From Meandrina meandrites (Eukaryota; Cnidaria; Anthozoa; Scleractinia; Meandrinidae): 64,000 bases of DNA. Positions within the stretch are counted from its first letter, which is position 1; each line of letters opens with the position of its first letter. This document shows positions 12,431-64,000 of this stretch, piece by piece. A model generated the notes under the pieces. It did not search any database and had not been told where the DNA came from. It was given only the letters and a program-made list of their open reading frames with translations. The position numbers and the translations under genes were made by a program. The stretch covers positions 42,165,895-42,229,894 of the forward strand of contig OY855905.1 in the NCBI GenBank assembly GCA_963693305.1, read 5' to 3'.

Positions 12431-12438
12431 GTGTGTCA

Positions 12439-12536
12439 CGAGTATAGCTAACTGTCGTGGGTCGTGGGTCGTGGGTAGAAGTCGTGGGTCGTGGGTGTGG
12501 GTAAAGTCGTGGGTGTAGGTAAAGTCGTGGGTAACA
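12439..12536 (+). repeat. GTCGTGG minisatellite, copy 1
   Basis: Reiterated GTCGTGGGT / GTGGGTAAA units after the leader GAGTATAGCTAACT. A copy with the same unit order, in opposite orientation, lies at 15074-15172. The pair therefore descends from one dispersed element that carries an internal minisatellite, rather than from two independent expansions. Confidence 0.85.
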
Positions 12537-15073: not shown

Positions 15074-15172
15074 GGTACCCACGACTTTTACCCACACCCA
15101 CGACTTTACCCACACCCACGACCCACGACTTCTACCCACGACCCACGACCCACGACAGTTAGCTATACTCGT
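15074..15172 (-). repeat. GTCGTGG minisatellite, copy 2 (inverted)
   Basis: Complement of the array at 12439-12536 with the same unit order, ending in AGTTAGCTATACTCGTG. It lies 0.44 kb upstream of the KIF23 start codon. Confidence 0.85.
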
Positions 15173-15461
15173 GTGTCACTTGCTTTCTCTGTTTTTTTTT
15201 TTTTTTTTTTTGCGTGAAAAACTGTTTTTTCCCCATGCAGGAGACGTTTCGACCGAACATTTTCGGTTGTTCATCAGTCAGCTCGCCAATTATCTTTTGC
15301 CCGTTAGGGAGCCTGTTCACAGACATGCCCGATTCTCGGTAAGACAGTGCGATTAGAATGATTTGGGCGTCAGAAAAATAATTTTATTTTAATTTGAGCC
15401 TGCAGATCGAAACATCCTCTTTTAGCGGTTTTTCTTTACAACATGCGTACTATCAAATATA

Positions 15462-35284: not shown

Positions 35285-42907
<7,623 letters not shown>

Positions 42908-45900: not shown

Positions 45901-45940
45901 GATTTCGTGTTGAGCGCTTGCTGAAGCACGGCGTAAAAAC
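42908..45940. other. Intergenic region ILF2 to coiled-coil gene
   Basis: About 3 kb. It contains the ILF2 3' UTR (a candidate non-canonical ATTAAA signal at 43099), a TA-flanked element (43910-44220), two TGACGTCA octamers 13 bp apart (45121 and 45134) and an A/T-rich stretch. Frames at 44649, 44849 and 45651 have no recognised domain. Confidence 0.5.
43910..44220. mobile_element. 311-bp TA-flanked MITE (CCGTAAAATTCCGG ends)
   Basis: TA followed by CCGTAAAATTCCGGTTATAA, and TTATAACCGGAATTTTACGG followed by TA. The interior reiterates GGGGCTTATA(T/A)CCGG five or more times. Ends and TA flanks fit Tc1/mariner-type insertion. Confidence 0.75.
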
Positions 45941-48854
45941 ATGGATACTTCGTGGTTATCAGAAACTTCGAGCGAGATGTTTAACTATTTGTACGACCAT
46001 ATAACAGGCGACGAAGAGACTCCAAGAACTTCCAGTTCTTTGAGTGCTCTTTCTAAAGGATTTCGGATCACTGATCTGCCGACAAATGATTATGAGCCAC
46101 TTGAGAATTCACCCGTGGCCAAACAGGTGGGCGTTGCCTTTTCATTGCGCGCTTGTTCCGATAAACAATTCGTCGACTTTATCGCATTTGGACGCTTAAA
46201 GAAACTTCAACGCCCTAAATAAGAACAATTGTTTCAAAGCGTACAGTTATTAAATACTTATATTTCTTGTTTTCCCGGAAGAAGATAAAAAGGCAATGGA
46301 TCTAAGGAGCGAATTTCCGAAGACAATTTTCGTGAAGGATTCAAAATTGTACCGAAATGGTATCATTTGAGCCGTTTGTTGATTATTTGTGTCTTTATTG
46401 CGGGTGTTGTTTTTTTGTGTGATCAATTTGTAGGGAGCAGAGAAAGAAATAGCGCGCTCACGGAGAAAAACCTCAGTTGTGACGCATCCAATCTGTGTTC
46501 AAGAGGTTTTCTAGAATTTGTTTTGTTTTAAGACGTTAGCTATTCTATTGCCAATTTTGTGAGATTTAAATTTTCAAAGAATCAAACAGTCACATTTCCC
46601 AAGCAAATAAGTTATCGTTTTTCTTCTAAACAGAGCATAAAATATCCAAACGGAGCATTCTTAATGTTGTTGAGGTTTGTTTAAATACGGCACGTGGAAA
46701 ACTGGTATAGCTCCAAATTATTTCTAAAAAATCGTTAAGTTTTGCTTCCCGCAAGTCAACTCTGAAATTAAACCGTGTTTACATTTTTTTCCTCCTAGCT
46801 AAAGAGAGAAAGTGAACTCAAAGATAAAATTGCTATTCTCGAGGCGGAATGTAATGGTGAGTTCTAAAGATAGTTGTTAATGCTTCGATACCACTGTCTC
46901 TACATATATTGTTTGTAGTTTACGAAAGCTTACGTTCAGACAAAACTTGAAACAGTTACGAAGACCTCAATTTTATAAAACAGCTGTTAAGATGGTGGCA
47001 AACGAGTACACAATGTTGCGGACTCATTGTTGCTCATGATGTTTCTTGGGTGGGCAAACGAGCGGGACACAAAACATTTGTTTTGTGTCCATGCCGCGCA
47101 AACGGGGAAACATTTGTTGCGGACACAAAATGTTTCTGACAAAAATCAGAAACATTTTTGTGTCTCGGGCACAAAATTTGTGTCCGCAACAAATGTTGCG
47201 CGCACGGGCAAACATTTGTGTCCGCAAAACTGCAAAAAATGTGTCCGCAACATTGTGTCCTCGTTTGCCACCACCTTTACTGAAAACATTGACATACATG
47301 CATATTGAGAGGATGTTGCATGCTTTCATTAACATGTCAATGCCACATAGCCTAGGAAATCCCATACTAATTTAGGGACACAAATTTGCTGTCTTCAATT
47401 TTCCTTGCAAAATCACTTTTCTTTTAGATAAAGACCAGCAGATAAAGAAAGTAAAAAAGAATGCCTTTGTGGCAAAGGGAAACTTTCTTAAGAAGAAAGC
47501 TGAAGTAGAAAAACTTAACAACGAGCTACAATCAGTCAGAGGTAAGTAAACAGGACATATGCAATTGACTACCCTCGGTTATTCAATCCACCGTACGCAA
47601 AAAGATGGCGACTGGTACAAAACCTATAATGCTTAGCGCGCGAAAACTGCAAAAACGCTCATAAAAGCGCGCAGAAAAGCTCTTAAACCTTGAAACCCAG
47701 CATGAACAATGTTGTTGGTACGTGGATGAATTTTGCAAGAAACATAGCTTTCTGTACGCAGGCCTTCCCAAAACTCGGCGGAAATTAACGCCAGCTACAT
47801 CTACACATTTTTTTTTTGGCTACCTGGGGGGTCCTAACTAAAAATGCACATTCAAGAAATAAGAGCAAATTTAATACTTGACAGTAAAGAAACTGTTTTA
47901 TCTTACTGTTTTAATTAAAACGTTCTTCTTGGTATATTTTCAGCAAATGAATCGACGTTGCGGGAGACAAATCTTTCTCTTAATCAAGAACTACAGAAAC
48001 TCCAACAGAGTCTGGAGAACACTCAACTTGTGCCAGATAGGTCGGAGATTAGCCAGCCGGCATGTGTTTCTCAAAACATTTGCTCACTCAACCGTCAACT
48101 GGCTGACTACAAAGCTGAACTGGATAAAAAAGTTAGAGAGAACAAAGGTAAGTCGTATTTTTATAATGAATAGATAAAATGTATTTAATTATGAAGGCTA
48201 AAAACAAACTTGAAACTGCTTGAAAATCGTACCTTTCACACCGTTCACAGCGGCACATGCATTTATAACTCACATATGGGAGTGCCCCCCCCCCCCCCTC
48301 CCCATCGGGAGTCAACATTGTACTTTCTCGTCTACCAAGGGACGTCCAAATTCAACTGAAATAAAAATGAATTTAACACTAGACAAGGAAGAAATTCTTT
48401 CGTCTTTGTGTTTTAATGAAACTACAACAAGGTGAAGTACAGTTAACTTGCGCCACATATGTTAGAGATCAATCAGGAATGTGCTTCTGAGAAATTGTGC
48501 ACTGACCAGTTAACAAGCTGATTACAAATCAGCTAGCTGATTGTTCAGTGCACAATCTCGTTCGATAAACAAGCTAGGGAAAACCAGACGTTAATTTATT
48601 TTTTGATGTCAGTTCCATTTGGGTTATCAAATGGAAGTGACCACAAAAAGTAAGTTTTTGTTAGACTAGCCGGAACGATAAAATGTGTTGAAACAAACTT
48701 TTATTAGTTATAAGTTGGCGGAAACGAAGTCAAACAGTAAAACAAAACAAAAAAATGAACTGATAAACCAACAATAAATGGCCGTTTTTATACCAGAGAC
48801 GCGTTACCCGTCTGGACGAGCTTCGGCAAACATTTTGTAATTCGTCCGGTTATC

Positions 48855-48885
<31 letters not shown>

Positions 48886-48965
48886 GTTACCCGTCTAGAC
48901 GAGCTACTTTTCGAAACGCGTCTTGAACGACGAATTTCGAAAGGTAGCTCATCTAGACGGGTAAC

Positions 48966-48996
<31 letters not shown>

Positions 48997-51900
48997 GATA
49001 ACCGGACGAATTACAAAATATTTGCCGATGCTCGTCCAGACGGGTAACGCGTCTCTGGTATAAAAACGGCCAATGAATAAATATCTATAGAAGATTAAAG
49101 GGTTTCTGACATTAATTCTAATCTGAATAATAATAAGAACTTTATTTAAGTGTCAGGGTAGGTATTTAGCTTACAGAAGCTACTTGGGGACACTACTACG
49201 TTACAATATATTAAGATTTAAAATATACAGTTAAGAATACGAATTAAGAATTAATTGGGTACACTAGGCTACTTTAGAATATATTAAAATTTACAGTGTA
49301 CGATAATTTACTATATTAAAAGCGATAATTTACTATGTTAAGAATTAGGATGGATAAATAAGAATGAATAATTTAAAAAACTGTTTCTAAAATTACGAAT
49401 ACAATATAATACAAGAGAGGAATAAAAATTGATATTTAAGTGAGTAGTTTAAGAATTAAGAAGTGCATATGAGACAGTTTGAACACCCATCCTCGATTAG
49501 AGCACTGAGGTCTTTGTTTCTAATATTCTTTCTAAAGTTACCGACGGTCAGTCTATTTTTGTCAATTGCGCTCAGTTTTGACCAAAGGTAAGGACCAAGG
49601 TATCTAATGGAGTGTTTTCCATAACGGACTGAAGAGAAACGAGGCAGATTGAAGTCAGCGTTTCTAAGAGAATAGCCCTTGTTCGAATTTGTAAAAAGTT
49701 CCGTTATGTAGTCAGGTACAAGGCCGTTTTTCACTTTGAACATTAGGATCGCGATATCCTGAAGACGTCTATTGTGAAGGGAGGGTAGCTTAGCACGGCT
49801 AAGAAGAGCATCGTAGGTGTCTGTCTTGGAGTTGAAGATGATTCTTAGCGCGCGTTCTTGTACTCTTTCAAGCTTGCGCCTGTCAGAAGCTTTGCAAAAG
49901 TGCCAAACTGTGTGGCAGTATGTTAAATTTGGGATTATTGCAGTTAGATATAAGTGGAGCTTAGTCTCGCATGAAATGAGATTACGAAGTCTTGCTAACA
50001 CACCCACTTTTTGGCTGGCCTTCTTGCATATGTCGCTGACATGATCGCTGAAGGAGAGTTCGTCATCCATTTTTATTCCAAGTATCTTCAGGCTCCTCGT
50101 CGGTCTAATTTGTTGATCGTCAATTGTCAGGGTACACGTGTCCTTTGCATTCTTGTCACCCCGTTGAGGTGCCATGACTAGAATTTGGTATTTGTTCGGA
50201 TTAGCTTGGAGAAGGTTGGCCTTGTACCATTGTGATACAGTTTTTGTTTCATTCTTGAGGGAAGAAGCTACAGATTCGATGCGTGTTCCATTGAAATATA
50301 CCTGGTGGTCGTCGGCGTACATAAACAAATTGCTGGTATGCACGTTTAGGGATAAATCGTTTTGGAACAGGTTCCACAGCAACGGTTCAAACGATGAACC
50401 TTGAGGACAGCCCCTTGACTGGTCCTTCCAGGAACTAGTCACACCATTAATTTTGACTCGATTTTTTCTTTCTTGAAAATAGGAACGCATAAGCTCTAGA
50501 GATGTGTGAGAGAACCCATACGCCTCAAGTTTCTTTATCATGAGAGCATGATGAAGAGAGTCGAAAGCCTTGCTCATGTCCGTTGACAAGACTGCCACGC
50601 ATTCCTTGTTGTCCATAGCTTTTTTCCAGTCCTCTGTCAAACGTATGAGATTGGTCTCGCAGGAATGCATTTTCCTGTAGGCTGACATTTTGCTATACAT
50701 CTCTGAGTCAGTCTTATCACTGATTTGCTTACTGAGCAGAGATTCAAACACTTTTGCTACAGAGTTTAGAACTGTTATGGGTCGGTAATTAGCGCAGTTA
50801 GTCCTGTCATCCTTTTTAAAGACTGGGGTCCACACTCCCATCTTCCAGCCGCGTGGCCACTGTCCCGTACTAATGCAATTGTTAAAAAGCCCTGTCAACG
50901 GGGCTGCAATGGCTCCGGCAGTTAAGTTAAGGATTTTTGGCGAGATTTCGTCCCATCCCGGTGCTTTGCTAGTGTTTAACTTTCTAAGTTCATTCTCGAC
51001 TTGGCTGTGATTTGTCTTTTCGAATTGAAAGTGAGAGTCATAGAAAGCATGGCGGATAGCTTTAACGCTTTGATGATTGTTAAAGTCTTGTTCGGTCAGT
51101 TTTAATACATGTTGACCACCGATATCATTTGCCATTGTGGAGAAATAATCACCCATCACCTCCACTACAGATTGTTGATCTGTAACAATATTCTCATTGA
51201 CTCTTAGGGAAATGTTTGTGACCTGTTTTCCTTTTGAGCGTAGGAATGGGTTGAAGGTCTTGAAGAAATCTCTAGGCTTAGTTTTCAGCTCGTCTGACTT
51301 TTGTGTCCAATAATTTTTGATTGCTTTTCTCCTTTCTCTGGTGGCTATGTTGCGCCATTTTCTCTTAAGCTCCCAGTTTTCAGGGGAACGGTTCCGCGCA
51401 TAATTTTGTGCGTACTTTCGTTTTTGTCTTATGGCATTTTTCCATTGGCTGGTCATGTACGGCACATCCTTCTCCCTTACTCTAATTTTCTTCCTTGGAG
51501 CGTGTTCGTCTAAGACACTATTAAGCAGGGCGGCCAAGTAGTCATATTGATCGTCAGGTGAGTCAAAAATCTCCCCAACGCACCACGGGGCAATCGAGAG
51601 GTCATTGTGAAGCAAATCTTTGTCTACGTTTTTAAGGCTCCTGAAAGACACGGTCTTACGCCTGTGCTGATATATTGATTGTGTTATGATTCCATAAATG
51701 AGATGGTGGTCACTGATCTCAGGATTAATTGCCCCGCATCGCTTGAAAAGTTGAGGTTTGTTTGTCAGTATCACATCCAGTAACGTCTCAGACGTGGGCG
51801 TAACCCTAGTTGGTTTGGTAATCAGACATTGCAGATCGTGCACTTCCTCAAGGTCTAACAATACTTTTCCCTCTCTGCGGTCTGGTCGTAGCCTATCCAT

Positions 51901-54900
51901 ATTTAGATCACCCGTGATGACAATCGCCTGCTTCTTTAAGGAGGCCCACATGCAGATATCGTTCAGTTCTTCCTCTACCGCTACAAAATATTGGTGGTTT
52001 ACTTGCTTGACCTTCGGAGGCCGATATATTCCGATGAATAGCATGTCGAGATTTCCCAGTCTGACCTCAACAGCTAGGGCTTCAAAAGTCTTATACGTCT
52101 TAGGTAGTTTCAACTCTTTCGAGGATATAGTCGAGTGAAAGTAAGCCAGAAGCCCGCCACCTCCTTTTTTCCTGTCACGACGATACATGTAGTATCCTGG
52201 TAAATTGAATTGGTCATTCGGATACGACCCGTCGATTTTGGTTTCCGAAATGAAGACAATGTGTGGTTTCGCTTCGTCACTGATACTCTTCAGTTCTTCA
52301 AATTTGTTCTGCAGGCTATTAATATTTAGGTGAATAAGAAGAACCTCGCTTGGTTTCTCTTTTCTCCTACTAATGAACTGATTGAACTCCGAGGTGTTAT
52401 CTTCGTTATCGATATCGCAAGTGTCAGCCATTTGTTGATTTGCATATTTTCTTTCCTTCGAAGCTTCCAGAATTCGGTCAATAGAGTCCATTTCTTCGGA
52501 GAAGAATGAGTCACTAAGTCTCGGCAGTGAGCACATTGGACATGTCCAGTCTAGATTAGGTTGGTCGAGGTAGAACTTGAAAGAAAGCGTTGACATATGA
52601 AGGCATTTGGCGTGGAACCAATGTTTACATTCGGAACACAAAATGGCATTCTGATTGTTTCGAACACTTTTGTTGCATTCTTTACAAGGATATTTAATCG
52701 GGCCAGGGTTTGGTTGAATATCGCCGCACAACTTGAGCCGTTGGGGGTTGAACCTACAACGTTGGTCTGTGGAGTGTGGTGTCGAAGACAAAGCGAAAGA
52801 TCGCCCACGACAGCGAAGTCTTCTTCTGGCGCTTGAAAGATAACCATTCATACCTACTCCAAAAGCAAAGTTTGCATTTAATCCAACATCGTCGTAGATG
52901 AGAAGCTTATCTCGTTGATTGATACCTTTGTAAGAGTTCTTTAAACGGTTATTAGGTGACTCGACGAAATAGACCAAAAGTAGAAGCAAGAAAGTGATGA
53001 ACGTTACGGAGCTTGTCTCCGCGTGTCCTGCCGCCATAATAATACATTGCACAGAAAATGATTGTCCCATGGAAAGTTAGCCGCCAATTACCTACAAAAG
53101 ACGAGAAGATTCGGGCGAAATACTCAGGCTATATAATAAGTATTTTGAATAAATTTATTGACACCAAGCCTTTGTTCGTATGAATGTTTACTTAATTTCT
53201 TGGAATTATTTTGGAACGTGAAATGAATTTGAAACAGTTATCGTCTCAACTTCGCTTCACCTTGCGTAATTCTGTGTTATTATTTTCTGTAGTTCTTTAT
53301 CCCCGTAGTTCAATATGCCTGTGTGGATGTCAATTTCACTTCAAGTTCTGTATTCTTTTGAAAAATTCCACAACAGCATAAAAAAAATTTATCCGCGGAA
53401 TGAATACGACTAAGCTGGAAATCCAATTGTTTTCGATATGGAGAACTCTTCAGATACGATTTTGACTCAAACAGTAAAATGTCTGTGCAATCCAAGACTA
53501 AAGTGTAAATTTAATAATTTTTGAAGGAAACGGCCTACTTTCCCCGTGAAAGTTTCATTCGATTCGAAGTTCAACTGGACGAGCAAAAAGTACAAACTTG
53601 TTTTGAATGAATTTGATCCTCGACGAGAATAGGACAATAAAATGACTTTTTGAGGGAATATTGTTTATTTGCGCCCGCGTAGTGTCATTTGCGGCCCGAG
53701 CGCGAAGCGCAAGGGCCACAAATGACACTACAAGGAAGCAAATAAACAATATTCCCGAAAAAAGTCATTTAATTATCATTATTATCAATATACAAGGCCA
53801 AATAACATCCCTGAACATCCAGATATAAGCTGAAACTAACACATTTAATGAGCTTTACATGTTCAATACTACAAGTACTTCGCGTTGAAAATTTTGTGCT
53901 ATGCTACACTGAGGCCCATGTATTGTAGTGTCTCTGAAAATGAGTGGATAATATATATATACCTCTTATTAATCGAGTTCGAGGTCCGTACTGTAAAATA
54001 CGGACCGAGTTTTGTTCCCGTCGATTTATGGCCCAAGCGCGAAGCGCGCGGGCCATAAATCGATGGGAAAAAAACGAGGATCCGTATTTTACAGTACGGA
54101 CCGAGAACACGAGGTTAATAAGATATTTATTATATCTCTCATTCTGGAGAAAAGAAACCATTTCAAGTCAATCGCGGCTACATTTGAATGACGCGCGCGT
54201 CAAATGCAAGAAGAAAGCGAAATTTATTGGCTTACGAAAACAGTTTGCAGTTGGCTCGCAGAGACGTGAATCCAAACTTCAAACGTTTTAATTTTACGAT
54301 TAATCCGTAAAGCTTCTTTCTGTGGAAAACTGGATACAGTTCAAGATTACTTTGAAATAACTCCTGAAGTGATGTGAAGTTCGATAAACAGAGAAGAACA
54401 ACTCTACTGCGAAGAAAGCGGTGACCGCAAGCAACAAACAATGATTTCGTCGAAAACATAAACAACCGGTAAAAACCTCAGAGACCTCCGTCTACTTTTA
54501 AGCGCTTTGCTGTGTCGTCCTGAGAGGTGTTTGGTGCAGAATTCTTGTTGGAAAATGAGTACACTATCGAACTTTTGTCTGGGGTGAACTCGAACTATCC
54601 GGCCGTTTTCAAAATAATAAGCGGACGTCGTTGAAAATTTGCCGAAGAGATCGTCTACAACAGCAGCAGGTACGTTGTTTTGATTGTTTTGTTCGTTTAC
54701 TCTCGACTAGCCTGCGAATACAACCGCCTCTCATTCGGGGAGCGATGAGAGGCGGCTGTATTCGACAAACTCTCGACAAAACTCTTTAAATCTTTTTCAT
54801 TCAGAATTCGACTTCTCTACCTTTCGGCAGAGAGAAAATTGTCAAGTTTCTGACTTGTGTGATGCTCGAGGTCGGGGACGCTTTCAGTTTCTAAAAGATC

Positions 54901-57900
54901 TGAAAAATCTAGTTTGAATTTTGTAAGACCCTGTTCTTTTCGCTTTTGTTTCTCAAAATGTTTTGTCCGAATGCAGATGTTTTCAAAATAGCTTTCAAAA
55001 TTTTCGTTGTAAGAGATTTTGATAAACAAAACTTATCGCATCAGGAGAACTCTCAAATTTCGCGGGCCGTACTGTAGAATACGGCCCGTAAAATTGACCA
55101 ATCACTGCGCGCGTACTGTCTTAGAGATATAATAAAGTAATTTACGAACTTACATTTTCCAGTTGAGCCTCGGCGTAAAATCCCAGCAATGCTTCAGCTA
55201 ATTTAGCTCGACCCGAGAAACACAAAATGAAGTGAACCGTTGTTTTGTTGTGTTTCGTTTCTCTTAAGACAACAAGAAGTTGCTCTCTTTATATCTTCCC
55301 CTTGTGCTTTTGCTTCTACATCCGAATTTTTTAGCTGCATTTTGTCCCACTCATAACAAATAGGGTTTGATTTTTCTTTTCGAACACTATTCGTTCAGCG
55401 AGAAACTGTTCGAGACTTTTTTAAAACTTGCTGTACGCACCTAAATGGTTTTCCAGCGTCATTAAACGTGGCCTGATTGGTTAATATTCATCGGATGATG
55501 AACCGAGAACCAATCAGCTGCAGGGCCGTCAATGCATTAACGGCCCGCTAGGAGTCATTTGCGGCCCGCAAAGCGCGTGTTTTCAAGAGGGCGGTTTTCA
55601 ATTTGGCCACGTATATTGATAATAATAATTCTACTTTCACACTGCCTCGATCCCAGATGCCTCTCTGTTAATGCACCTGAGGAGGAAGTAATATCAGTTT
55701 AAGATTTTTAAGATAAAGCATGACTTTATAAGGCAAACGGCAAAAGCGAGCTTGCCTTTCATTTTGTTACCTTTTTTTATAGAATTCTAAAACAAATCCC
55801 TCAGAAAATTAGGGAAAAAATCGCACATTTGCGACTAACACAAACCTACTGATTTTCCGAGTTCAAACGCCGAACTGCAGACGGAATTTTGCCGTTTACG
55901 GGGAATAAAAAGGAAATCATATTTATTAAGCTATAAATTTGTTATTTTCCCTCCCCTGACTTGCTGTCAATTTAATTTAGTATATCTGTCAACAATTTTT
56001 GTAAGCAGCTATAAATTTTGTATTGTATTTTTGCCGTACCTTTTAGTATGGTGCTCTAGAAGTTGTACTATACGCGTAATTGTATTTTTGTCTGTTTTTG
56101 TTTTGTTTTTGCTGCCAATAACAAAAAGATTTACGAGAAAGGCTGGAAAACACTCGACGGACAGCAGAGATAAATCAAGCCTGTTTTAATCAGGAAATGT
56201 GTGTGCTAAATGATAATCTGGCCGCTTACAAGTTTGCACTCGAAAACCAGGCCAGAGAAAATAAGGAGCTGGAACAGGCATCAAAAGGTAAGACCCATAG
56301 CGGCTAAAATGTATCTAATCTTGCATGAAAGTAAGAAAAACTTTAAGTTAAAAGATTGTGGAAACGAAGTCAAATAATAAAACAGAAAAAAAGTCAGCAA
56401 ACCAACAAAGAAAACAAAACAAAAAATACAAAAAGAAACGAAGTCAGGGATAATTTCCTTAGCCCACAAGATACAAATGGAAAAACGTTAATAAGGAAAG
56501 ATGCGGTAAATACGTTCGGCTGTGAAATGGGAAAGATGTAGTGTCTTAAGGTTATTTCCTTGGGACGTAGACAAAAACCTAACTACAAGAGAGGAATCGA
56601 ACCCATAACCTCTCGGACACAGGGCGGGTGCTCTTTCCATTGGGCTACGAAGAAACTCATGGTGATCAAGGTCATGTTTTACAAGATTCATACGTGATTT
56701 TTCTTTATTTATCGTTATACCGTACGGTATCGATATTTCTAATCCTAGCAGTATACAGAACGCGTGTCACATATGAACCTAGTAAATAGGCTTGCTTACC
56801 TTGAGTTCTCGTACCTCAGCAGAAAAAGCGCCCGCCGAGTGTTTTGGGAGGTCGACATGAATTTGATTCCCGTCGGAACTGATTGTTGTTGGGCAAATTC
56901 GCGCAGAATTGTATGTCAGTTGAATGAATAAAAACTTTTAATTGCGTTCAACGATAGGAGAACGCAACCTAATCTTGTGTTGTTAAATTTGGAGGCAAAT
57001 TTGCCTCGCTTTCATTATTGGGTTCGTTTTGACGATCTCACTTAAGTGGTGTCGGTGATACCTTATATGGATTTGGATCATGCCACCACTGTCGACAGAG
57101 CGAGGGATTACCGCAAGAGACTTTTCCTTGAGGGTTGACACCCTGGGCGAGACCCCAGTGCGAGCGGTGAGCGTATTGACATACCAGCAATTTACAAGTC
57201 TTTCCCCGTAATTCGATCTCACGCAACGATCGCTCTGTGATGTTTGCTATCGTAGCAAGCGCCGAATAGTGAACCGTTAAAAAGCCGTTACGGCCTTTAT
57301 GACATTTGAAACCGATGAAGACCAAAGATATTCGGCCGAAACGTTTTGAGCGTCACCTGCATGGGAAAACTAGGAATTTCTCATGCAAGGCAAGTAACAA
57401 GTAGCACGTTGTTCTTCAGTCGCGAGCATGTCAAACGCACTACGTAATCTTTAATTAATCCTAGTTTGGTCTATATTTGAAAACCCTTAATTAACATCTT
57501 ATCTTTCAGATAAAGACCAGCAAATAAAGATGTCAAAGAAGAATGCTCTTGTAGCAAAAGGGAACCTTCTTAAGGAGCAAAGAAAGGTGAAAAAACTCAC
57601 CAACAAGCTTCAATCAGTCAGAGGTAAGTAGACATTCTCAACAACAACAACTGTTATCGTTTGTCTCACTCGGGATCAAGATGGAGATCGTGACGTCTTG
57701 ACTGCTTATACTGCACGGTCCACTCATTATATCGGTCTCCTGCTTTCGTTTATGGACCGTAGACATGGATATCCGTGCGAAAAAAAATTAACAGAATCTC
57801 CACAAGAGAATACTTTTTAAAACTATTTGCTATTTGGAATGATTTCAGAATGGGAAAGCACTTTGAAGGTGAAGAATTTAATTCTTCACCTTCAAAGTGC

Positions 57901-60700
57901 TTTCCCATTCTGAAATCATTAAAACGGCAGTTACTGGAATTGCAAGAGTGGCTCAATAACTGCATACTGGTTTTGGAGCCCTACTTGTAGTTCCAGTATG
58001 CACAATAACGACGAATCCCTCTGACATCTTTTTGTTCGTTGCTCTTTTGTATATCCGCATTCTGGGACCAAATTCTAAATTGGAACGCCATTTGCAGGGA
58101 TAATTTTGACAAATTTGACGATACAGCTATCTTATTTGGCATTCCATCGTCTGGGCAAACGGAGGGAGAATATCGGAGAATAACGGAGAGAGGTCAGAGA
58201 GAGGAGATCTTAGCAAGCCCTGTTGGGCTTTTCAGAGAAGATCCCCAGTCTATAGTAACAATACATCATTTTTACAATTAAGCTACGGCTAACTGCAGTA
58301 TAACATATTTCCGTTGAATCTAATCTCATCAAACCATCATGAATTCGCCCTTTTCGTTGCTAAAATTGATCATCTTAAGTCTTTGGAGTACCAAACAGCC
58401 AAAAAAGAGAACTTGATAAGCGCAAGGCGGAGAACACTCAGCTTTTGGAGAAATCAGCGATCGATTAGACGTGCCTTTCTAAGAAAATTTCTTCACTGAA
58501 TGAGCAGCTAGCCGCTTACAAAGCAGAGTTGAAAAAACTTTTTAAGTTTTTTCACCTCTGCTTTCTAACTGGCTAGCTGTTTAAACTATGACAATCGCAT
58601 TTCAATCGAAATCTACTCCGGACTTTGTCTGATGTCGAAAAACAATGTAATACACCTGAAAGTGATAACTGGATCATCGCAGTGAATTTCCAACTTAAGC
58701 AATTGGAATAAAGAAGCCTGAAAATAATTCAGGGCTTCAATGAAAGACACGAAATTCACTGCGATGATAATTTATCACTTTCATATACATCCGCAGTTCA
58801 TGTACGCAGTTCAAGTGAGTGAGCGAATTCACTCGCTAGGTCGATCCTTCACTGAATGAGCAGCTAGCAGCCACTTACAAAGCCTTCCTTCCTTCCTTCC
58901 TTCCTTCCTTCCTTCCTTCCTTCCTTCCTTGGGTCTTAGACTTTTGCTTGTAATTCCGCTGACCAATGCATAACTTAACTTGACGATGAAATTTTGAAAA
59001 CGTCTACAAATGTGAAACGTAGTGAAGTAATGAGTGATGAGATAATTACTCATGAGTGATGAAATATTGAAAGCGGAGTAGACCAGTAGACCCTGGGAAC
59101 AAGGTTGACGCGTCCTAAATTTCTTTATCAAACATAAACAATCAGCAGCCACTTTCGACAGCAGGTTTTCATCCAGCAAGGTAAAAAATGCATATCTGTA
59201 CCCACACCATTTAACAATAGACTCTGTTCGTACGTTCCCAAAAATGACACGCTTGAAGCTTTTCAAACGATTCACACGGTGAACACGCAAACTCTCCAAA
59301 CCTTTCGCACCATCCGCACGATCCACAAGTTGTAAACCAAAAGTATATTTTACCACTAAAAATTCAACACATGTAACGCTGGATTTGGCGTCCTAATATA
59401 AACCTTATGAAACAATTCAGAGACGGTCTCTGTAATTTCGGTCTGCTCGATCTGGTTTGAAAAATAGATTTTGCTTATTTCTTGTGTGTTGCAAGACTTT
59501 CATGTACTTATACTAAAACCACAATCCGCTTGACCAGATTATTTATTTTTCCCGAGTTTTAATGTCTTGTTGCTTGCTTGATTCGAAGTCAATGTTCATG
59601 AAAGTCGGTGTGATAAATCAAGAAGACATAATATAACTGGCTGTGGTGTTTTTTTAGTACAGAAGTTATTCGTTTTTGTTTAATTCATCTTGAAACTTGT
59701 GGTAAATTTAAGCCGTGACATTGGTCGTTACGGGCGCTCGTTGGGGTGAACCGAAAATCCTTAAAAACTCGAAAAAAATAAATAATCTGGTCAAGCGGAT
59801 TGTGGTTTTAGTATAAGTACATGAAAGTCTTGCAACACACAAGAAATAAGCGAAATCTATTTCTCAAGCCAGATCGAGCAGACCGAAATTACAGAGACCG
59901 TCTCTTCAAGTTTTAATTGTTGTTTTCAGAGTTTGCACTGTATCACTGGATTTCATAATTTACGGGTTTTTCCAGCGTTACATTTTTTGCAACGGTGGTG
60001 GAAGGCAATGGCGTGCGCTACTATGAAGCAAAATAATAAATTATTATAAATGGGAAGCACTTACTAGCTTCTTGGGGGAAAAGAAAGAAAAAACACGTCG
60101 GAGGGAAAAAAAGATCGTGCGAGTGCCCGCCCGTGTATTGAACTCTCGCCCGCCTTGCTTTCAATACTGTGTACCAACGCATTGAGCTAACTTAACACAT
60201 AGGTCCGCAAAGCGTATATGTGTCTAGAGCGTTATGCATTATTGTATTGCGCATTTTATACTGATGCATCTACTTCATCATGCAAAATAGTCGTAGCCTC
60301 GAAGAAGCCTTTGATTATATTCATTACGTCAATGTAATACACCCATTTGAATGTCATTAGAATTTTGACGTAAAGAACAGGGCAGAATAGTTTTGACGAC
60401 ATTCAATCCTTTTTCCACAGTACGTGTCAATGGATATAAATTTACAGTCTGTAATTATAGACACCGCTAGTCTCTAACAGAAATAATTTTCGTTTATTAA
60501 AAACTAGCAACGGTATATTGCAATTCCTGAGATTTGATTGGCTAACAGGCAATGGTATATGAGCTCATATACCATTCACCACAAATTTCATAGCCGATGC
60601 GCGTCAACGAAAACAGCTGGGGAGCTCAAATATTGCAATTCTTTTGGGCGTTTTTAATAAAACAATTATTCCACTCGCGCTTGTTGGAAATGAGATCGTT

Positions 60701-60733
<33 letters not shown>

Positions 60734-61076
60734 ATCTACCATCTCATATCCAACGCGCGCTCGTGGAATAATTGTTAAATATATCATGCTAAAAAAATAA
60801 TGAATCTCCACAAGAGGAGATTTTTAAACTATTTACTATTTGGAACGATTTCAGAATGCGAAAGCACCTTAAAGGTGAAGAATTCGTCATTAGAACGGCA
60901 GTTACAGGAACTACGAGAGTACCTGGACAAACGTATGGCGGAGAGCACGCAGCTTTTGGAGAAATCAGTGATCGATCAAAAATCTCTTTCTAAGAGGATT
61001 TCTGCATTGGATGGCCAGCTTGCCACTTACAAAGCACAAGTGGATAACCTTAACAACGAACTGCAGTCATTCAGAG
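45941..61076 (+). CDS. Unrecognised coiled-coil protein with duplicated exons, 5' part
   Basis: I do not recognise this gene. Nine exons with agreeing phases give 389 residues and run on past the last exon seen: 45941-46126, 46434-46505, 46636-46674, 46799-46856, 47428-47541, 47944-48147, 56129-56287, 57510-57623, 60855-61076. The ATG has a good context (AAAACATGG). The N-terminal about 90 residues are Ser/Thr-rich. From HKISKRSILNVVELKRESEL onward the protein is heptad-like and charged, typical of coiled coil. Exons 5 to 9 all start and end in phase 1. Exons 5 and 8 are both 114 nt and encode near copies (DKDQQIK..KKNA.VAKGN.L). Exons 6, 7 and 9 share a motif of the type L(N/D).(Q/N)LA.YK. 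The donor of exon 2 (GAGGTTTTC) and the acceptor of exon 7 (ACAAAAAG) are weak. Between exons lie decayed exon copies (48456, 57853, 58411, 58845, 61917). Function unknown; such proteins are often cytoskeletal or centrosomal, but that is only a guess. Confidence 0.7.
46994..47272. mobile_element. 279-bp foldback, GGTGGCAAACGAG ends
   Basis: GGTGGCAAACGAG at left and CTCGTTTGCCACC at right. The interior is permuted repeats of 'GGACACAAAATGTTTC', 'ACATTTGTTGCGGACAC' and their complements. In intron 4 of the coiled-coil gene. The open frames on both strands (47024-47365) are products of the repeat. Confidence 0.75.
47584..47756. repeat. Foldback repeat, copy 2 (CAATCCACCGTACGC family)
   Basis: Same orientation and nearly the same sequence as 33062-33230, but the right complementary arm is missing, so this copy is truncated. 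In intron 5 of the coiled-coil gene. Confidence 0.75.
48285..48298. repeat. Poly-C tract (14 C)
   Basis: An uninterrupted C14 run in intron 6 of the coiled-coil gene. Confidence 0.9.
48456..48566 (+). pseudogene. Decayed exon copy with inverted duplication (relic 1)
   Basis: TTAGAGATCAATCAGGAATG..AACAAGCTGATTACAAATCA parallels exon 6 (TCGGAGATTAGCCAG..CAACTGGCTGACTACAAAGC). In the exon frame it reads EINQECASEKLCTDQLTS then a stop, against EISQPACVSQNICSLNRQLA. Its second half is followed by an inverted copy of itself (ATCAGCTAGCTGATTGTTCA..GTGCACAATCTC), making an imperfect palindrome of about 65 bp. Confidence 0.6.
48779..49072. mobile_element. 294-bp palindromic MITE, copy 2
   Basis: Same length and nearly the same sequence as 671-964, with only scattered differences (for example TACCAGAG for TACTAGAG on both outer arms). 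Flanked by AAT on both sides. It lies between relic 1 and the LINE in intron 6. Confidence 0.85.
49124..53100 (-). mobile_element. LINE (non-LTR retrotransposon), apparently intact
   Basis: Minus-strand element inside intron 6 of the coiled-coil gene, in opposite orientation to it. The 3' end (about 49124) carries AATAAAGTTCTTATTATTAT, i.e. short ATT repeats rather than a long poly(A). The body is filled by one uninterrupted frame (49456-53070). The 5' border is approximate. APE endonuclease, PHD-like finger, YADD and the short repeat tail together fit the CR1/L2-like assemblage; the exact clade is not determined. Confidence 0.85.
49456..53070 (-). CDS. LINE polyprotein: 2A-like, PHD-like, APE endonuclease, RT
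   Basis: 1,204 codons without a break. Residues about 20-37 are hydrophobic (SSVTFITFLLLLLVYFVE), like a signal or membrane segment. Residues 112-124, LKLCGDIQPNPGP, match the core of 2A ribosome-skipping peptides (G-D-x-x-x-NPG|P). A C4HC3 PHD-like finger follows (C129, C132, C145, C148, H153, C156, C177, C180). The apurinic-type endonuclease spans about 244-460 (LNINSL, SETKID, GDLN 387-390, SDHHL 453-457). The reverse transcriptase spans about 740-1000, with NYRPITVL, DMSKAFD and the catalytic YADD (918-921). The C-terminal about 200 residues include the LGPYLWSKL motif common in these LINEs. The first ATG is taken as start; ATGs at residues 12 and 74 are alternatives. If skipping works, residues 1-123 would be released as a separate small product. 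Confidence 0.85.
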   Translation of the reverse strand: MGQSFSVQCIIMAAGHAETSSVTFITFLLLLLVYFVESPNNRLKNSYKGINQRDKLLIYDDVGLNANFAFGVGMNGYLSSARRRLRCRGRSFALSSTPHSTDQRCRFNPQRLKLCGDIQPNPGPIKYPCKECNKSVRNNQNAILCSECKHWFHAKCLHMSTLSFKFYLDQPNLDWTCPMCSLPRLSDSFFSEEMDSIDRILEASKERKYANQQMADTCDIDNEDNTSEFNQFISRRKEKPSEVLLIHLNINSLQNKFEELKSISDEAKPHIVFISETKIDGSYPNDQFNLPGYYMYRRDRKKGGGGLLAYFHSTISSKELKLPKTYKTFEALAVEVRLGNLDMLFIGIYRPPKVKQVNHQYFVAVEEELNDICMWASLKKQAIVITGDLNMDRLRPDRREGKVLLDLEEVHDLQCLITKPTRVTPTSETLLDVILTNKPQLFKRCGAINPEISDHHLIYGIITQSIYQHRRKTVSFRSLKNVDKDLLHNDLSIAPWCVGEIFDSPDDQYDYLAALLNSVLDEHAPRKKIRVREKDVPYMTSQWKNAIRQKRKYAQNYARNRSPENWELKRKWRNIATRERRKAIKNYWTQKSDELKTKPRDFFKTFNPFLRSKGKQVTNISLRVNENIVTDQQSVVEVMGDYFSTMANDIGGQHVLKLTEQDFNNHQSVKAIRHAFYDSHFQFEKTNHSQVENELRKLNTSKAPGWDEISPKILNLTAGAIAAPLTGLFNNCISTGQWPRGWKMGVWTPVFKKDDRTNCANYRPITVLNSVAKVFESLLSKQISDKTDSEMYSKMSAYRKMHSCETNLIRLTEDWKKAMDNKECVAVLSTDMSKAFDSLHHALMIKKLEAYGFSHTSLELMRSYFQERKNRVKINGVTSSWKDQSRGCPQGSSFEPLLWNLFQNDLSLNVHTSNLFMYADDHQVYFNGTRIESVASSLKNETKTVSQWYKANLLQANPNKYQILVMAPQRGDKNAKDTCTLTIDDQQIRPTRSLKILGIKMDDELSFSDHVSDICKKASQKVGVLARLRNLISCETKLHLYLTAIIPNLTYCHTVWHFCKASDRRKLERVQERALRIIFNSKTDTYDALLSRAKLPSLHNRRLQDIAILMFKVKNGLVPDYITELFTNSNKGYSLRNADFNLPRFSSVRYGKHSIRYLGPYLWSKLSAIDKNRLTVGNFRKNIRNKDLSALIEDGCSNCLICTS
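53641..53769. repeat. 129-bp palindrome, AATGACTTTTTGAGGG ends
   Basis: AATGACTTTTTGAGGGAATA..GTGTCATTTGCGGCCC and its near complement around the core GAGCGCGAAGCGC. The core phrase GCGCGAAGCGC recurs in the next palindrome, although the arms differ. Confidence 0.8.
53947..54136. repeat. 190-bp palindrome with GCGCGAAGCGC core
   Basis: Arms GATAATATATATATACCTCT..GGTCCGTACTGTAAAATACG..CGATTTATGGCCC and complements around AAGCGCGAAGCGCGCGG. Same plan as 53641-53769: AT-rich outer arms and a GC-rich self-complementary core. Confidence 0.8.
54711..54765. repeat. 55-bp hairpin, CCTGCGAATACAACCG arms
   Basis: CCTGCGAATACAACCGCCTC is answered by GAGGCGGCTGTATTCG around ATTCGGGGAGCGATGA. It shares the CCTGCGA start with the hairpin at 29406. 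Confidence 0.7.
56585..56660 (-). mobile_element. tRNA-like SINE head
   Basis: Minus strand: A box TAGCCCAATGG (56637-56647) and B box GGGTTCGATTCC (56593-56604), about 33 bp apart. The predicted acceptor stem does not pair, so this is a tRNA-derived SINE or tRNA pseudogene rather than a tRNA gene. In intron 7. Confidence 0.5.
57624..57852 (+). repeat. Intron segment shared with introns after exon 9 and relic 5
   Basis: GTAAGTAGACATTCTCAACA..CGTTTGTCTCACTCGGGATC is repeated at 61077 and 61935 next to exon ends. TCTCCACAAGAG..TTTAAACTATTTGCTATTTGG before relic 2 is repeated just before exon 9 (about 60803-60854). The duplicated unit therefore included intron sequence on both sides of the exon. 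Confidence 0.75.
57853..57962 (+). pseudogene. Decayed exon copy broken by a 36-nt inverted duplication (relic 2)
   Basis: The acceptor (GATTTCAG) and the start AATGGGAAAGCACTTTGAAG match the start of exon 9 (AATGCGAAAGCACCTTAAAG). At the point where exon 9 continues to CATTAGAACGGCAG, this copy has an inserted perfect complement of its own acceptor and first 26 nt (TTCTTCACCTTCAAAGTGCT..CTGAAATC), then resumes ATTAAAACGGCAGTTACTGG. In the exon frame the insertion brings a TGA stop. The 3' half of the exon is missing. Confidence 0.75.
58411..58582 (+). pseudogene. Decayed exon copy ending in an inverted duplication (relic 3)
   Basis: GAACTTGATAAGCGCAAGGC..CTCAGCTTTTGGAGAAATCA..GCTTACAAAGCAGAGTTG parallels the second half of exon 9. 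The frame has a TAG where exon 9 reads GATCAAAAATCT. The last about 35 nt (AGCTAGCCGCTTACAAAGCA..AAAAAACTT) are followed at once by their complement (AAGTTTTTTCACCTCTGCTT..GGCTAGCT). Confidence 0.75.
58657..58784. repeat. 128-bp inverted repeat, TGAAAGTGATAA ends
   Basis: TGAAAGTGATAACTGG..ATCATCGCAGTGAATTTC and its complement (GAAATTCACTGCGATGATAA..TTATCACTTTCA) with an inner CCTGAAAATAATTCAGG. Located between relic 3 and relic 4. Confidence 0.65.
58845..58932 (+). pseudogene. Exon fragment fused to (CTTC)n (relic 4)
   Basis: TCCTTCACTGAATGAGCAGC..CACTTACAAAGC repeats about 35 nt of relic 3 and then runs directly into about 12 CTTC units (58883-58930). The Lys/Glu/Gly-rich minus-strand frame here comes from the microsatellite. 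Confidence 0.65.
59421..59903. mobile_element. 483-bp element with about 150-bp terminal inverted repeats
   Basis: AGACGGTCTCTGTAATTTCG..CTTATACTAAAACCACAATC..GACCAGATTATTTATTTTT on the left and the complement on the right (..AATAATCTGGTCAAGCGGAT..AATTACAGAGACCGTCT). The spacer of about 190 bp is unique. Arms are highly similar. In intron 8. Confidence 0.8.
60135..60192 (-). mobile_element. Possible tRNA-like fragment
   Basis: Minus strand TTAGCTCAATGC (60179-60190) and GAGAGTTCAATAC (60135-60147) resemble A and B boxes about 31 bp apart. No convincing stem structure. Weak call. Confidence 0.3.
60660..60776. repeat. 117-bp palindrome, AACAATTATTCC ends
   Basis: AACAATTATTCCACTCGCGC..GATCGTTATAGCCAAC and complement around the core GGCGCTACGCGCC. 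It sits just before the duplicated segment that leads into exon 9. Ends match those at 42540 and 62047. Confidence 0.75.
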
Positions 61077-61930
61077 GTAAGCAGATATGCGCAACAACAA
61101 CAAACTGGTATCGTTTGTCTCACGATGTAATTGCTAATCACTTGGGATCGAGATGTAAATCATGATGTCTTGCCTGATTATACAGCTGAAGCTTTTGTTC
61201 ATCAAGCGATGAGTTCGACTCATTATTGTCACTATGGCAATCACATTTCAATCAAAAATTTGTTTCCTGTGGTGTCCGCGATAATGTCGATCTCCTGCTT
61301 CTTTTGTATTTGACCGCTGGCATACATATAAGCGCAGCTGGAACTGATATGACTATTAATGCAATTTTAAAGGTCCGTAAAATTAACCTTTGGAGATATT
61401 GGTATAGAGTTATATGGACATTTAATTATGTTCAAATGCAAGCCGTGTTACTTAGGGTCCCTCACTACCTCTTCTAACGCTCGATTTATTTCATTGGTTC
61501 TCAAAATAATAGATAACAGGTCATAATAATATCCCTTGCCCTGAACAACATTAGAGTTAGTGTTTACAGAGGGCAAATGAACATATAGGTTCCAGAGAGT
61601 CAGTTTTTTACTGCCAGAGAACTACGTGAGAAACGTATCAATTTTTTTGAAAATGGAAAGAAACAGATAGAGGCGACTATTGAAACACAAAGAAATCTGA
61701 TTCCAATTATTTTCCCGGTTTAACAACAAACGGGGCAGAGTGTGAGGTCGGCCGCCTCACTAAATATATTGTATTCAAGAATTGTCATCTACTCTGGACT
61801 TTTTTGAATGACATACAGCCATTTGAATTCCATTAGAATTTTGATATAAAAAACACGGCAGAATAGTTTTGGCGGCATTCAATCCTTTTTCCACAGTGTC
61901 ATTGAATATAATAATTTTGATGTCAATCAG
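61077..61930 (+). other. Intron after exon 9: duplicated intronic sequence
   Basis: The first 270 bp match the sequence after exon 8 and after relic 5. The last about 110 bp (61805-61916, AATTCCATTAGAATTTTGAT..GCAGAATAGTTTTGGCGG..CCTTTTTCCACAG) match 60331-60420, upstream of exon 9. No exon recognised between them. Confidence 0.6.
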
Positions 61931-61935
61931 AAGTG
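61917..61935 (+). pseudogene. Residual 3' end of a lost exon 9 copy (relic 5)
   Basis: About 18 nt (GTCAATCAGAAGTGAGCAG) correspond to the last bases of exon 9 plus its donor (GTCATTCAGAGGTAAGCAG). They are flanked upstream and downstream by the same intron sequences that flank exon 9, so the exon body has been deleted from this copy of the unit. Confidence 0.6.
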
Positions 61936-62046
61936 AGCAGATATGCGCAACAAAAACAAACTGGTATTGTTTGTCTCACGAAGTAATCACTCAGGATCAA
62001 GATCTGGAGATCGTGACATCTGGACTGCTAATATTTAATATTTCAT

Positions 62047-62158
62047 ACAATTATCCTGCGAAATCGCGCGGAATATCGCCTGATACTTAGCCGACGAGGC
62101 CGTAGGCCGAGTTGGCTAAAATCAGACGATATTCCGCAAGATTGAGCAGGATAATTGT
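62047..62158. repeat. 112-bp palindrome, ACAATTATCC ends
   Basis: ACAATTATCCTGCGAAATCG..CGGAATATCG.CTGAT and complement around the core GACGAGGCCGTAGGCCGAGTTGG. Same plan as 42540 and 60660. Confidence 0.75.
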
Positions 62159-62561
62159 TTTATTATTCAACAAATTGTCAACGAAACGCTTTTTGTAGCG
62201 AGAATAACTGTGGTTGTGCGGCGCTTTGCAAGATTTCGGACGAATCTTGGCGATCTACGTATATCGCAGGATATCTGTTACAGATAACAATGGCTTTCTG
62301 ACCATATATGGGCATCGCGCGAGCTTGTTGAATAATAATGCTTATTGTCAGTTCCCCATTGTCGGTCTACTGCGTTTTTTGTATTTGACCGTGGGCATGC
62401 ATATCCGTGCTTTTGAAAGATATGCTTATTTATACAACTTTAAAAGCCTGTAAAAACAATTCTGCTCGGAAGGGAGAATACAATTCTCAAACAGCCAAAG
62501 GTAAAGTAAGTGAAACACTTTCCATCTCCATTTCATTTGTATCACAATGCAAAATTAATTT

Positions 62562-62875
62562 AGTGTAAAGGTGGCACATGCTAAAAACAAAGTGAACGTG
62601 ATTTTGTGTGCCAGAAGCTGTGAATTTAGTACAGACATAACACCTCAACCCGATTCAGGCAGGCCATTAAAAAGAGTCACCGCTTGCCGAGCAAACTGTG
62701 AAGATGGTACACACTAAACACCTTAACGCGATTCAGATGCCATACCGCGTGTCAAAAATGCTGTAAAGGTTGTACAGACCTAAACCCTCACCGTGATTCA
62801 GTCAGACTGAGCAAAAGAGATTCTGCGTGCCAGACAAATTTGACTGTGGCGAAGGCTTGAAACCTTAACGATAAC
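62562..62875 (+). repeat. Degenerate minisatellite, unit about 55-77 bp
   Basis: Five diverged units start near 62562, 62617, 62694, 62760 and 62831. They share a core of the form CTGTRAAGGTNGTACAGACC..AACACCTTAACGCGATTCAG. Units are 55-77 bp and strongly degenerate, so this is an old array. Confidence 0.6.
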
Positions 62876-62959
62876 ACTTAACTTAAGTCCGGGATCGTTT
62901 CATACCATAAAACTAGAGTTCCGTTTTTGGTGTATATCGGTGCACAGGGCGCCTTATGT

Positions 62960-63662
62960 CAGGGGCACCCAACGACCGAATCTTTCCAAAGACGTCAGAA
63001 GTGTCGTAAATGGATTTCTCTATGTTCTAGAAGGCTTTTTAGTTAATTTGGAGATGCCCTAAAAAATATTTATCTGTTCGGATATTTAAGGGGAACTTTC
63101 GTCGTTTCGAAAATTCTAGGGTCCTTTTTTGAGTCATCCGAAAGTTTTAGCTATCCTGATGGATCTTGTCGAAAGTTCGAGGACACTGAGAGACCATATT
63201 TTCACTAGAAAATTTTAGGGGAAGTTTTTCGTTATACGTGTGCCTATCGAAATTTCGCGAAAATACTAGGCAATATAAATGTTTATCCGAATATTATAGG
63301 CGTTAAACCTATTCATCCAATAATCTGATAAGTAGGCTAATGCCGAGCTCAATCACCTCAATTGCCTTTATCTTTCATTAGGTTCACGTACATTCCTGAT
63401 TACCTCTAATGCTCACCGAAACTTTCAGCAGCTTTTGGAATAATTAAGCCAAAAGAACATTTTAGAGAACAAACAAAACCGTCCGAAAATTATGGGACAT
63501 GATAAAAGTGAGCACATCAATTCCGAAAATTCTAGGGAAACTTTATGGTTTTCCGAAAAAATTTGAGAAGTCTAGAGCGTCGCTGGGAAAAAATTTCGAA
63601 ATTCTTAGGCGACCTTCCATCCGAACAGATATTTTACCGAAATATTCCGTTGGGTGCCCCTG
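62960..63662. mobile_element. 703-bp element with CAGGGGCACCCAACG ends and 6-bp duplication
   Basis: Inverted ends CAGGGGCACCCAACG (62960-62974) and CGTTGGGTGCCCCTG (63648-63662), flanked on both sides by TTATGT (62954-62959 and 63663-63668), a perfect 6-bp target duplication. The interior contains about ten degenerate copies of a TCCGAAAATTCTAGGG-like phrase at irregular spacing in both orientations. The frame at 63499-63720 has no recognised domain. Superfamily unassigned. Confidence 0.75.
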
Positions 63663-63668
63663 TTATGT

Positions 63669-64000
63669 GCTGTTGGTGGAGGCGGCAAAGGCCTCTCGCA
63701 GTGTCCTTTTAAACAAGTAAATAGAACGCAAGTGAATGCCAAATCTAGCGCTTTAGCTAGCATTTTTCCAAGAAAGGGTTGGAAAAATTAAGAAAATTAT
63801 ATTTCGTGTGGTATGAAACGTTTTTCACTTGGAGAATATCCTCAATTCCCTGCTAAAGGTAATATCTTTAGTAGGCAATTTGAGATATTCTCCAACCGGA
63901 GTTCCATTTCCGTTTATGTTGTACAACGGTGCACTTGGCGCTTGCTTCATAGGTGGAGGCGGTGAAGGCTTTTGGCAGTGTGCTGTTAAACAATAAAAAA
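63669..64000 (+). other. Right flank of the element and a diverged uninterrupted paralogue of its insertion site
   Basis: GGTGGAGGCGGCAAAGGCCTC..GCAGTGTCCTTTTAAACAA (63675-63719) matches GGTGGAGGCGGTGAAGGCTTTTGGCAGTGTGCTGTTAAACAA (63953-63993). GAGTTCCGTTTTTGGTG..CGGTGCACAGGGCG before the element (about 62919-62952) matches GAGTTCCATTTCCG..CGGTGCACTTGGCG (about 63899-63943). The downstream copy lacks the element, so it shows the uninterrupted arrangement. A 50-bp hairpin (TTGGAGAATATCCTCAATT..AATTTGAGATATTCTCCAA) lies between them. Confidence 0.65.

Follow-up and report, generated by a model that had tools for sequence, protein, structure and literature searches.

Growth, fusion and decay of exon copies at a probable coiled-coil gene of stony corals, with inverted self-copies in its dead copies

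By comparing a 64-kb stretch of the genome of the stony coral Meandrina meandrites (contig OY855905.1, positions 42,165,895 to 42,229,894; hereafter the window) with itself and with protein sequences, we found an array of exon copies that were born by local duplication of an exon together with its intron. Coordinates beyond 64000 continue the window numbering into 27 kb of new sequence (30 kb fetched). We consider it probable that the array is one stony coral gene with a short conserved N-terminus, a helical rod encoded by A- and B-type exons and a likely proline-rich C-terminal tail, which has been growing by duplication and has acquired fold-backs via template switching. All 15 A, B and C exons that were measured are in phase 1-1, so that the gain, loss or skipping of a copy leaves the reading frame intact. 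Tandem exon duplication as such is of a known kind, and the unusual features here are the near-identical units that carry exons and the inverted self-copies within dead copies. At this locus, copies of many different ages lie side by side, from near-identical tandem units through to dead relics, and the inverted self-copies in the dead exons hint that exon duplication and the making of hairpins are linked, which bears on the origin of cnidarian small-RNA genes.

Exons and relatives of the gene

A search with the joined protein at E <= 0.001 returned two proteins, P0001 from Desmophyllum pertusum (1.3e-43) and P0002 from Oculina patagonica (5.2e-42), both belonging to the Scleractinia, Hexacorallia. 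The profile search up to E 10, in which the best 7992 candidates were scored, gave five: these two, another D. pertusum relative of 795 residues (P0003), and two short frames bearing exon 1 (P0004 and P0005), which read from exon 1 into VGVSFF, like an intron read-through. The named relatives found are corals only, and as the protein search was based on word sharing and length limits, a wider distribution of relatives is possible. The N-terminus of P0003, used as a query, matched only itself.

The earlier note on this DNA had listed five exons in a row, between 47428 and 61076, as phase 1-1. These were retained, since each is bordered by AG and GT and the joined frame is open over 376 codons (doubtful exon 2 included); with lengths of 114, 204, 159, 114 and 222 nt the symmetric phase is kept in 5/5. 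The candidate exon at 46434-46505 is doubtful, as P0001 joins exon 1 to the exon at 46799 and the latter to A4. The exons of the candidate gene within the window are as follows.

45941..46126, + strand: exon 1, with the start codon and the conserved coral N-terminus; 75% over 64 columns to D. pertusum P0001, and matches to P0003-P0005
46434..46505, + strand: doubtful exon 2; open, AG/GT borders, absent from P0001
46799..46856, + strand: exon 3, phase 0-1; matches residues 66-83 of P0001
47428..47541, + strand: A4, A-type exon, phase 1-1; 79% to P0001, 76% to Oculina P0002
47944..48147, + strand: B5, B-type exon, phase 1-1; 49% to Oculina P0002 residues 142-207
56129..56287, + strand: B56, B-type exon, phase 1-1, truncated at the 5' side; 57% to Oculina P0002 residues 89-141
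57510..57623, + strand: A57, A-type exon, phase 1-1; 80% DNA identity to the A4 region
60855..61076, + strand: B60, phase 1-1; by sequence comparison a chimera of a B-type 5' part and an A-type 3' end

That B60 is a chimera had escaped the earlier note. A-like sequence makes up its last 46 nt and the intron after it (47496-47546 versus 61031-61081, 82%; 57578-57714 versus 61030-61186, 71%), and this A-like end is absent from Oculina segment B4. The sequence AAAGCTGAA, which is found at the corresponding place in B5 and in A4, could have guided the B/A fusion that gave B60. B56 is without the first third of a B exon, which is present in Oculina B2, and its acceptor follows CCAATAACAAAA.

Exon types A and B occur in one chain in the predicted proteins of two stony corals, which lends indirect support to a splicing of the copies into one mRNA. 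In P0002 the order is a B5-like, a B56-like, an extra B5-like, an A and a B60-like segment. In a tree of ten B segments, made from a short alignment with relic 1 left out, B5 of the window grouped with Oculina B1 and B3 (0.84), B56 with B2 (0.88), and B60 and relic 2 with B4 (0.85); two D. pertusum segments fell on the B60 side (0.72). This grouping across species indicates that the three B types seem to predate the split from Oculina, and the sister pair formed by Oculina B1 and B3 (0.998) points to an extra B copy that Oculina made on its own. The earlier suggestion that protein length may differ among species was supported in so far as the exon content differs from that of Oculina, a comparison that rests on a predicted Oculina gene model.

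Hydrophobic residues recur with a period of 3.5 strongly in B60 (0/2000 shuffles reached it) and more weakly in the whole rod (p 0.03), and not significantly in B5 (p 0.16, with a peak at 3.6), A57 (0.31) or exon 1 (0.52). AlphaFold2 predicted helices at residues 2-25, 35-171 and 180-348 of P0002, with two breaks within B5-type segments. From these predicted helices and breaks, A and B exons would add rod and B5-type exons would add a hinge.

The earlier note could not name the protein, and no curated family names it in our Pfam and PDB sequence searches either. Pfam gave sub-threshold coiled-coil matches only (Fez1, GAS, CENP-F and others; best 27.5 bits versus a cut-off of 34.4 for a 323-residue join), the scan of the relatives likewise stayed under the cut-offs, and the PDB search gave one match at E 0.071 without membership. 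Human TEX9 was rejected as an identity: the two are alike in their coiled coil (23% over 124 columns, a coiled-coil level of similarity obtained with composition correction off), the N-terminus of the coral protein is unmatched, and similarity outside coiled-coil stretches was not convincing. A comparison with viral contigs gave 235 pattern matches, of which 0 were confirmed, and the tRNA scan (bacterial-code setting) found none.

Starting 2 kb past the window we found three tandem 1.03-kb units (65973-67000, 67001-68027 and 68028-69050), with identities of 98.1% between the first and second, 96.4% between the second and third and 95.5% between the first and third. Each unit carries three proline-rich exons, C1, C2 and C3; a fourth C1 lies at 71540 and diverged C copies follow at 71393-72465. 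The C exons that were measured are all in phase 1-1 with AG/GT borders (10/10). Downstream of B60, the fetched stretch showed no further exon of type A or B. The peptide of C3 matched the tail of Oculina P0002 with 38% over 26 columns when composition correction was applied (E 0.003, against a handful of sequences) and with 40% over 42 columns when the correction was left off. Judging from this match and from the shared strand, phase and position, the C exons are likely the proline-rich tail of the coiled-coil gene, to which further copies would add proline-rich pieces. As the tandem units are near-identical, copy-number variation among individuals, which the earlier note had raised for protein length, is plausible. 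One more C block lies inverted at the end of the window.

63653..64000, running on to ~64310, - strand: inverted diverged copy of the C exon block; 65-71% to 66061-68874 and 71393-72426, with two C-type peptide matches

Several observations weigh against the reading as one rod-and-tail gene. The structural model of P0002 is weak (predicted local distance difference test 67, predicted template modelling score 0.26, three-row alignment). The acceptor of B56 is weak-looking and the splicing of this putative exon is uncertain. The Oculina A exon is closer to A4 (76%) than to A57 (47%), though its position fits A57. The ratio of non-synonymous to synonymous change between A4 and A57 was contradictory (0.17/0.84 by NG86, 0.26/0.29 by YN00), and selection on the exon copies is unproven. 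What ties the C exons to the coiled-coil part is their strand, phase and position and a weak match to the Oculina tail, with which C1 and C2 shared nothing past short runs of four residues under composition correction. C2 has a different donor, GTAGG, because the GT site of C1 and C3 reads AT in C2. For C3, the two older unit comparisons gave 10 and 8 amino-acid changes per 12 and 9 nucleotide changes, and with so many of them selection on the tail is not evident. For the rod-and-tail gene we infer that the lengths of rod and tail are free to drift and that the N-terminus is the constrained part.

Duplicated blocks and fold-backs in dead copies

Self-comparison of 45901-64000 at E <= 1e-3 gave 38 hits, 19 direct and 19 inverted, and 15 of the 19 direct ones lie inside the exon array (own count); five first-order Markov shuffles gave 0 hits each. 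The similarity exceeds coiled-coil composition at the DNA level and spans exons, splice sites and introns. Homology of neighbouring exons at the DNA level holds for the window array as well as for the 1.03-kb units. The two 114-nt exons are near copies, as had been noticed before (47416-47552 versus 57498-57634, 80% identity, E 8e-28). The block after the last exon (61066-61182) was found again at 61922-62033, and its start resembles 57614-57710; of the sequence before that exon, 60781-60884 recurs at 57769-57878 and 60331-60439 at 61807-61911. For the decayed copies that had been placed at 48456, 57853, 58411, 58845 and 61917, sequence aligning to a live exon or its flank was found in every case, either at the site itself or next to it.

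48347..48660, + strand: relic 1, B-type copy; upstream intron B5-like, downstream intron (48695-48774) like that after B56
57769..58580, + strand: relic 2, copy of the B60 block (upstream part and exon) with an in-frame stop; split at ~58002-58406
58847..58883, + strand: fragment like 58491-58524, adjoining a (CCTT)12 run, found by self-comparison
61807..62455, + strand: copy Z, an exon-less copy of the B60 block 60331-61382, found by self-comparison
62469..62504, + strand: fragment resembling the end of a proline-rich C exon; over 36 nt it is 83% identical to the sense arm of the 72200 fold-back listed below

In copy Z, 61807-61911, 61922-62033 and 62360-62455 match 60331-60439, 61066-61182 and 61285-61382, respectively. 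The gap in relic 2 is filled by mobile-element sequence that is present at dozens of places in the genome. The earlier note had the gene growing and decaying by duplication of exons with their introns. Growth is borne out by the direct DNA repeats and by the near-identical exon-bearing units beyond the window, and decay by relics 1 and 2, which align to live exons. Intron was duplicated along with the exon in B60, relic 2 and copy Z, in B5, relic 1 and B56, and in the 1.03-kb units, whereas A4 and A57 share only ~12 nt of intron on each side. A 28-nt stretch at 41102-41129 is 86% identical to part of B56 (E 0.004), probably by chance.

Inverted self-copies are a recurrent form of exon decay at this locus, which the earlier note had not seen. 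We list these fold-backs, the five of the window (unstranded) first and the two beyond it last.

48491..48559: fold-back I11 in relic 1; 33-nt arms, 82%, loop 3
48593..48656: fold-back I13, at the exon end and donor of relic 1; 29-nt arms, 83%, loop 6
57838..57920: fold-back I6, at the acceptor and exon start of relic 2; 41-nt arms, 100%, loop 1
57932..57998: weak fold-back I16 in relic 2; 29-nt arms, 76%, loop 9; missed by both palindrome scans
58505..58579: fold-back I9 in relic 2, replacing the exon end and donor; 36-nt arms, 89%, loop 3
71841-71902: fold-back in a diverged C2 copy; 30-nt arms, 93%, loop 2
72200-72272: fold-back in a diverged C2 copy; 36-nt arms, 92%, loop 1

In I6, I11, I13 and the fold-backs at 71841 and 72200, an inverted copy of adjacent exon sequence is inserted and the original exon copy resumes, so that it continues on both sides, as template switching would leave it; I9 replaces sequence instead. 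I6 resumes at a shared TCATT(A). When aligned with live C2, the fold-back at 71841 appeared as an inverted copy inside the exon, and that at 72200 as the exon end and donor in antisense, after which exon end and donor follow in sense, a layout as in I13. Both C2 copies with fold-backs have a common one-base deletion after the start that shifts the frame. The antisense arms match their own sense arms in 41/41 (I6), 32/36 (I9), 27/33 (I11) and 24/29 (I13) positions, and the approximately chosen live segments in 37/41, 28/36, 21/36 and 19/30. Arm identities of 100, 89, 83 and 82% suggest that the fold-backs differ in age.

The frequency of fold-backs in dead copies was tested binomially, assuming independence and uniform placement and with I16 in no count; borders of the A/B relics were drawn by hand after the palindromes had been seen, and those of the diverged C copies were taken from BLAST matches and set before the palindrome scan there. 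On these terms the first scan placed 3/13 palindromes in 499/64000 nt (p 1.3e-4), or 3/8 within 45900-64000 (p 1.1e-3), and the second scan 3/17 (p 3.0e-4), or 4/17 after a later widening of relic 1 (p 1.6e-5). The new stretch by itself had 2/6 palindromes in 1073/27000 nt of diverged C copies (p 0.02), and over all 91 kb 6/23 tight palindromes fell in 1663/91000 nt (1.8%; p 2.9e-6). As the pattern was seen in the window and then again in later sequence, we count it in favour of the rod-and-tail gene with template-switch fold-backs. The partial C copy at 72383, the fragment at 58847 and copy Z showed no fold-back by these scans. Of the six palindromes of the new 27 kb, four lie outside the C2 copies: 65451 is a member of a repeated family, with matches at 42540 and 62047, 75555 is partly copied close by, and for 75414 and 90914 the 91 kb contained no match. 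Two near-perfect short-loop palindromes, 75414-75488 (95%) and 75555-75630 (97%), lie 66 nt apart outside recognised exon copies. A further inverted repeat lies just 3' of relic 2 (58650-58790, fold z -10.3).

Unequal exchange among the repeats, or template switching between them during replication, would have given rise to the duplications, and a switch onto the nascent or opposite strand would have made the fold-backs, which in turn may help to kill the copies. That template switching gives rise to such hairpins has been published (PMC8794818); the likeness lies in inverted copies, tiny loops and a return at microhomology, as in I6, and the difference in that six lie here in dead exon copies of one locus whereas the paper concerns RNA genes. 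With tandem duplication of symmetric exons (PMC9013439 and PMC9741552) the locus shares in-frame duplication of exons with intron flanks within one gene, and it differs in having three exon types, copies ranging from near-identical to dead, an exon fusion and inverted self-copies.

Alternative explanations

The fold-backs might instead be functional or nascent small-RNA precursors, with hairpins in the pre-mRNA being cut by Dicer into small interfering RNAs (siRNAs) that match the live exons. We regard this as unlikely, and equally so the fuller scenario of a self-targeting small-RNA gene being born, in which an exon is duplicated, the spare copy undergoes inverted self-duplication, and the resulting intron hairpin matches the live exon and sets up a silencing feedback. 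If true, the locus would capture, in place, an intermediate stage of the model of inverted duplication proposed for Hexacorallia. According to PMC7713132, precursors of hexacorallian endogenous siRNAs and microRNAs (miRNAs) are proposed to start as inverted duplications of their targets, and extended target homology was found for 11/138 Nematostella miRNAs versus a mean of 2.5 in shuffled lists. The fold-backs resemble those precursors in the inverted coding copy, the extended homology to a live target and the hexacoral relatives, and would differ in lying in introns of the target gene itself and in being known from DNA alone.

The hairpins are much stabler than shuffled sequences (I6, -55.3 kcal/mol, z -14.0; I9, z -9.1; I11, z -7.9), fold-backs are over-represented in dead exon copies, and the large inverted C block at 63653-64310 would be a second source of double strand, although its identity is only 65-71%. 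A 21-mer from the antisense arm of I6 fits the body of B60 (60864-60884) with 2 mismatches and one from I9 has 3, but the closest I6 match (1 mismatch) crosses from intron into exon at B60, so that in the mRNA it would be split, the best one of I13 likewise touches an exon end, I11 needs 4 mismatches and I16 has none within 4. Homology to the target beyond the guide site was found for I6 and I9 and was weak for I11. Rfam gave 0 matches at gathering scores; of the 33 sub-threshold matches (E <= 5 in 18.1 kb) none was taken as real, the miRNA ones reflecting generic hairpin similarity. Loops of 1-6 nt and pure self-copies are compatible with mutation alone. In a milder form, tandem exon arrays may be hot spots of inverted self-insertion in which hairpins are born without function.

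A role of the fold-backs in splicing, with antisense arms pairing with exon borders and so making copies optional, is very unlikely in our view. The I6 antisense arm is complementary to the acceptor and start of B60 at 37/41 positions, and competing structures around tandem exons are described in PMC6071210, but a perfect partner for the same arm lies 1 nt away. A4 and A57, looked at as possible mutually exclusive exons, are not adjacent alternatives, and the Oculina gene model holds several B copies together.

We give hardly any credence to the palindromes being mobile fold-back elements that landed in dead copies. Such elements occur here (671-964 and 48779-49072, 97% alike), relic 2 holds repeated mobile sequence, and several palindromes outside relics are also without another match in the window, so that the absence of fold-back copies in the 64 kb is weak evidence. 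The arms are, however, exon sequence in register with the live exons, and in a genome search (551 Mb), which skips very common words and covered I6, I9, I11 and I13, I6 matched itself and B60 only, I9 and I11 matched themselves only, and I13 had no copy elsewhere. Just as barely tenable is the idea that the exons belong to separate transcripts and are alike through coiled-coil composition alone, as the sub-threshold Pfam matches might suggest, which is contradicted for the A/B part by DNA identity across splice sites and introns and by an Oculina protein with the same exon order.

Other elements in the window

The intron between B5 and B56 holds a long frame that is foreign to the gene.

49459..53076, - strand: long interspersed nuclear element-type frame of 1206 uninterrupted codons, with PHD finger, endonuclease and reverse transcriptase domains

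At 671-964, 48779-49072, 36562-36850 and 20868-21124 the window has palindromes whose arms measure 127-146 nt. The identity of the first two indicates at least one repeated fold-back family, and 20868-21124 resembles sequence at 5985-6429. Inverted termini of ~108 nt, 97% alike and ~2.5 kb apart, were found at 12437-12543 and 15066-15173 together with GTCGTGGGT repeats, and this is perhaps a DNA transposon. On the + strand, frames in 2017-5290 encode laminin G domains (at 2017-3849), and inspection by eye showed a hydrophobic stretch farther along; we take this region to be possibly a neurexin-like gene. Within it, 3577-3805 is a run of (ATACA) x 45.8 with a 100% match.

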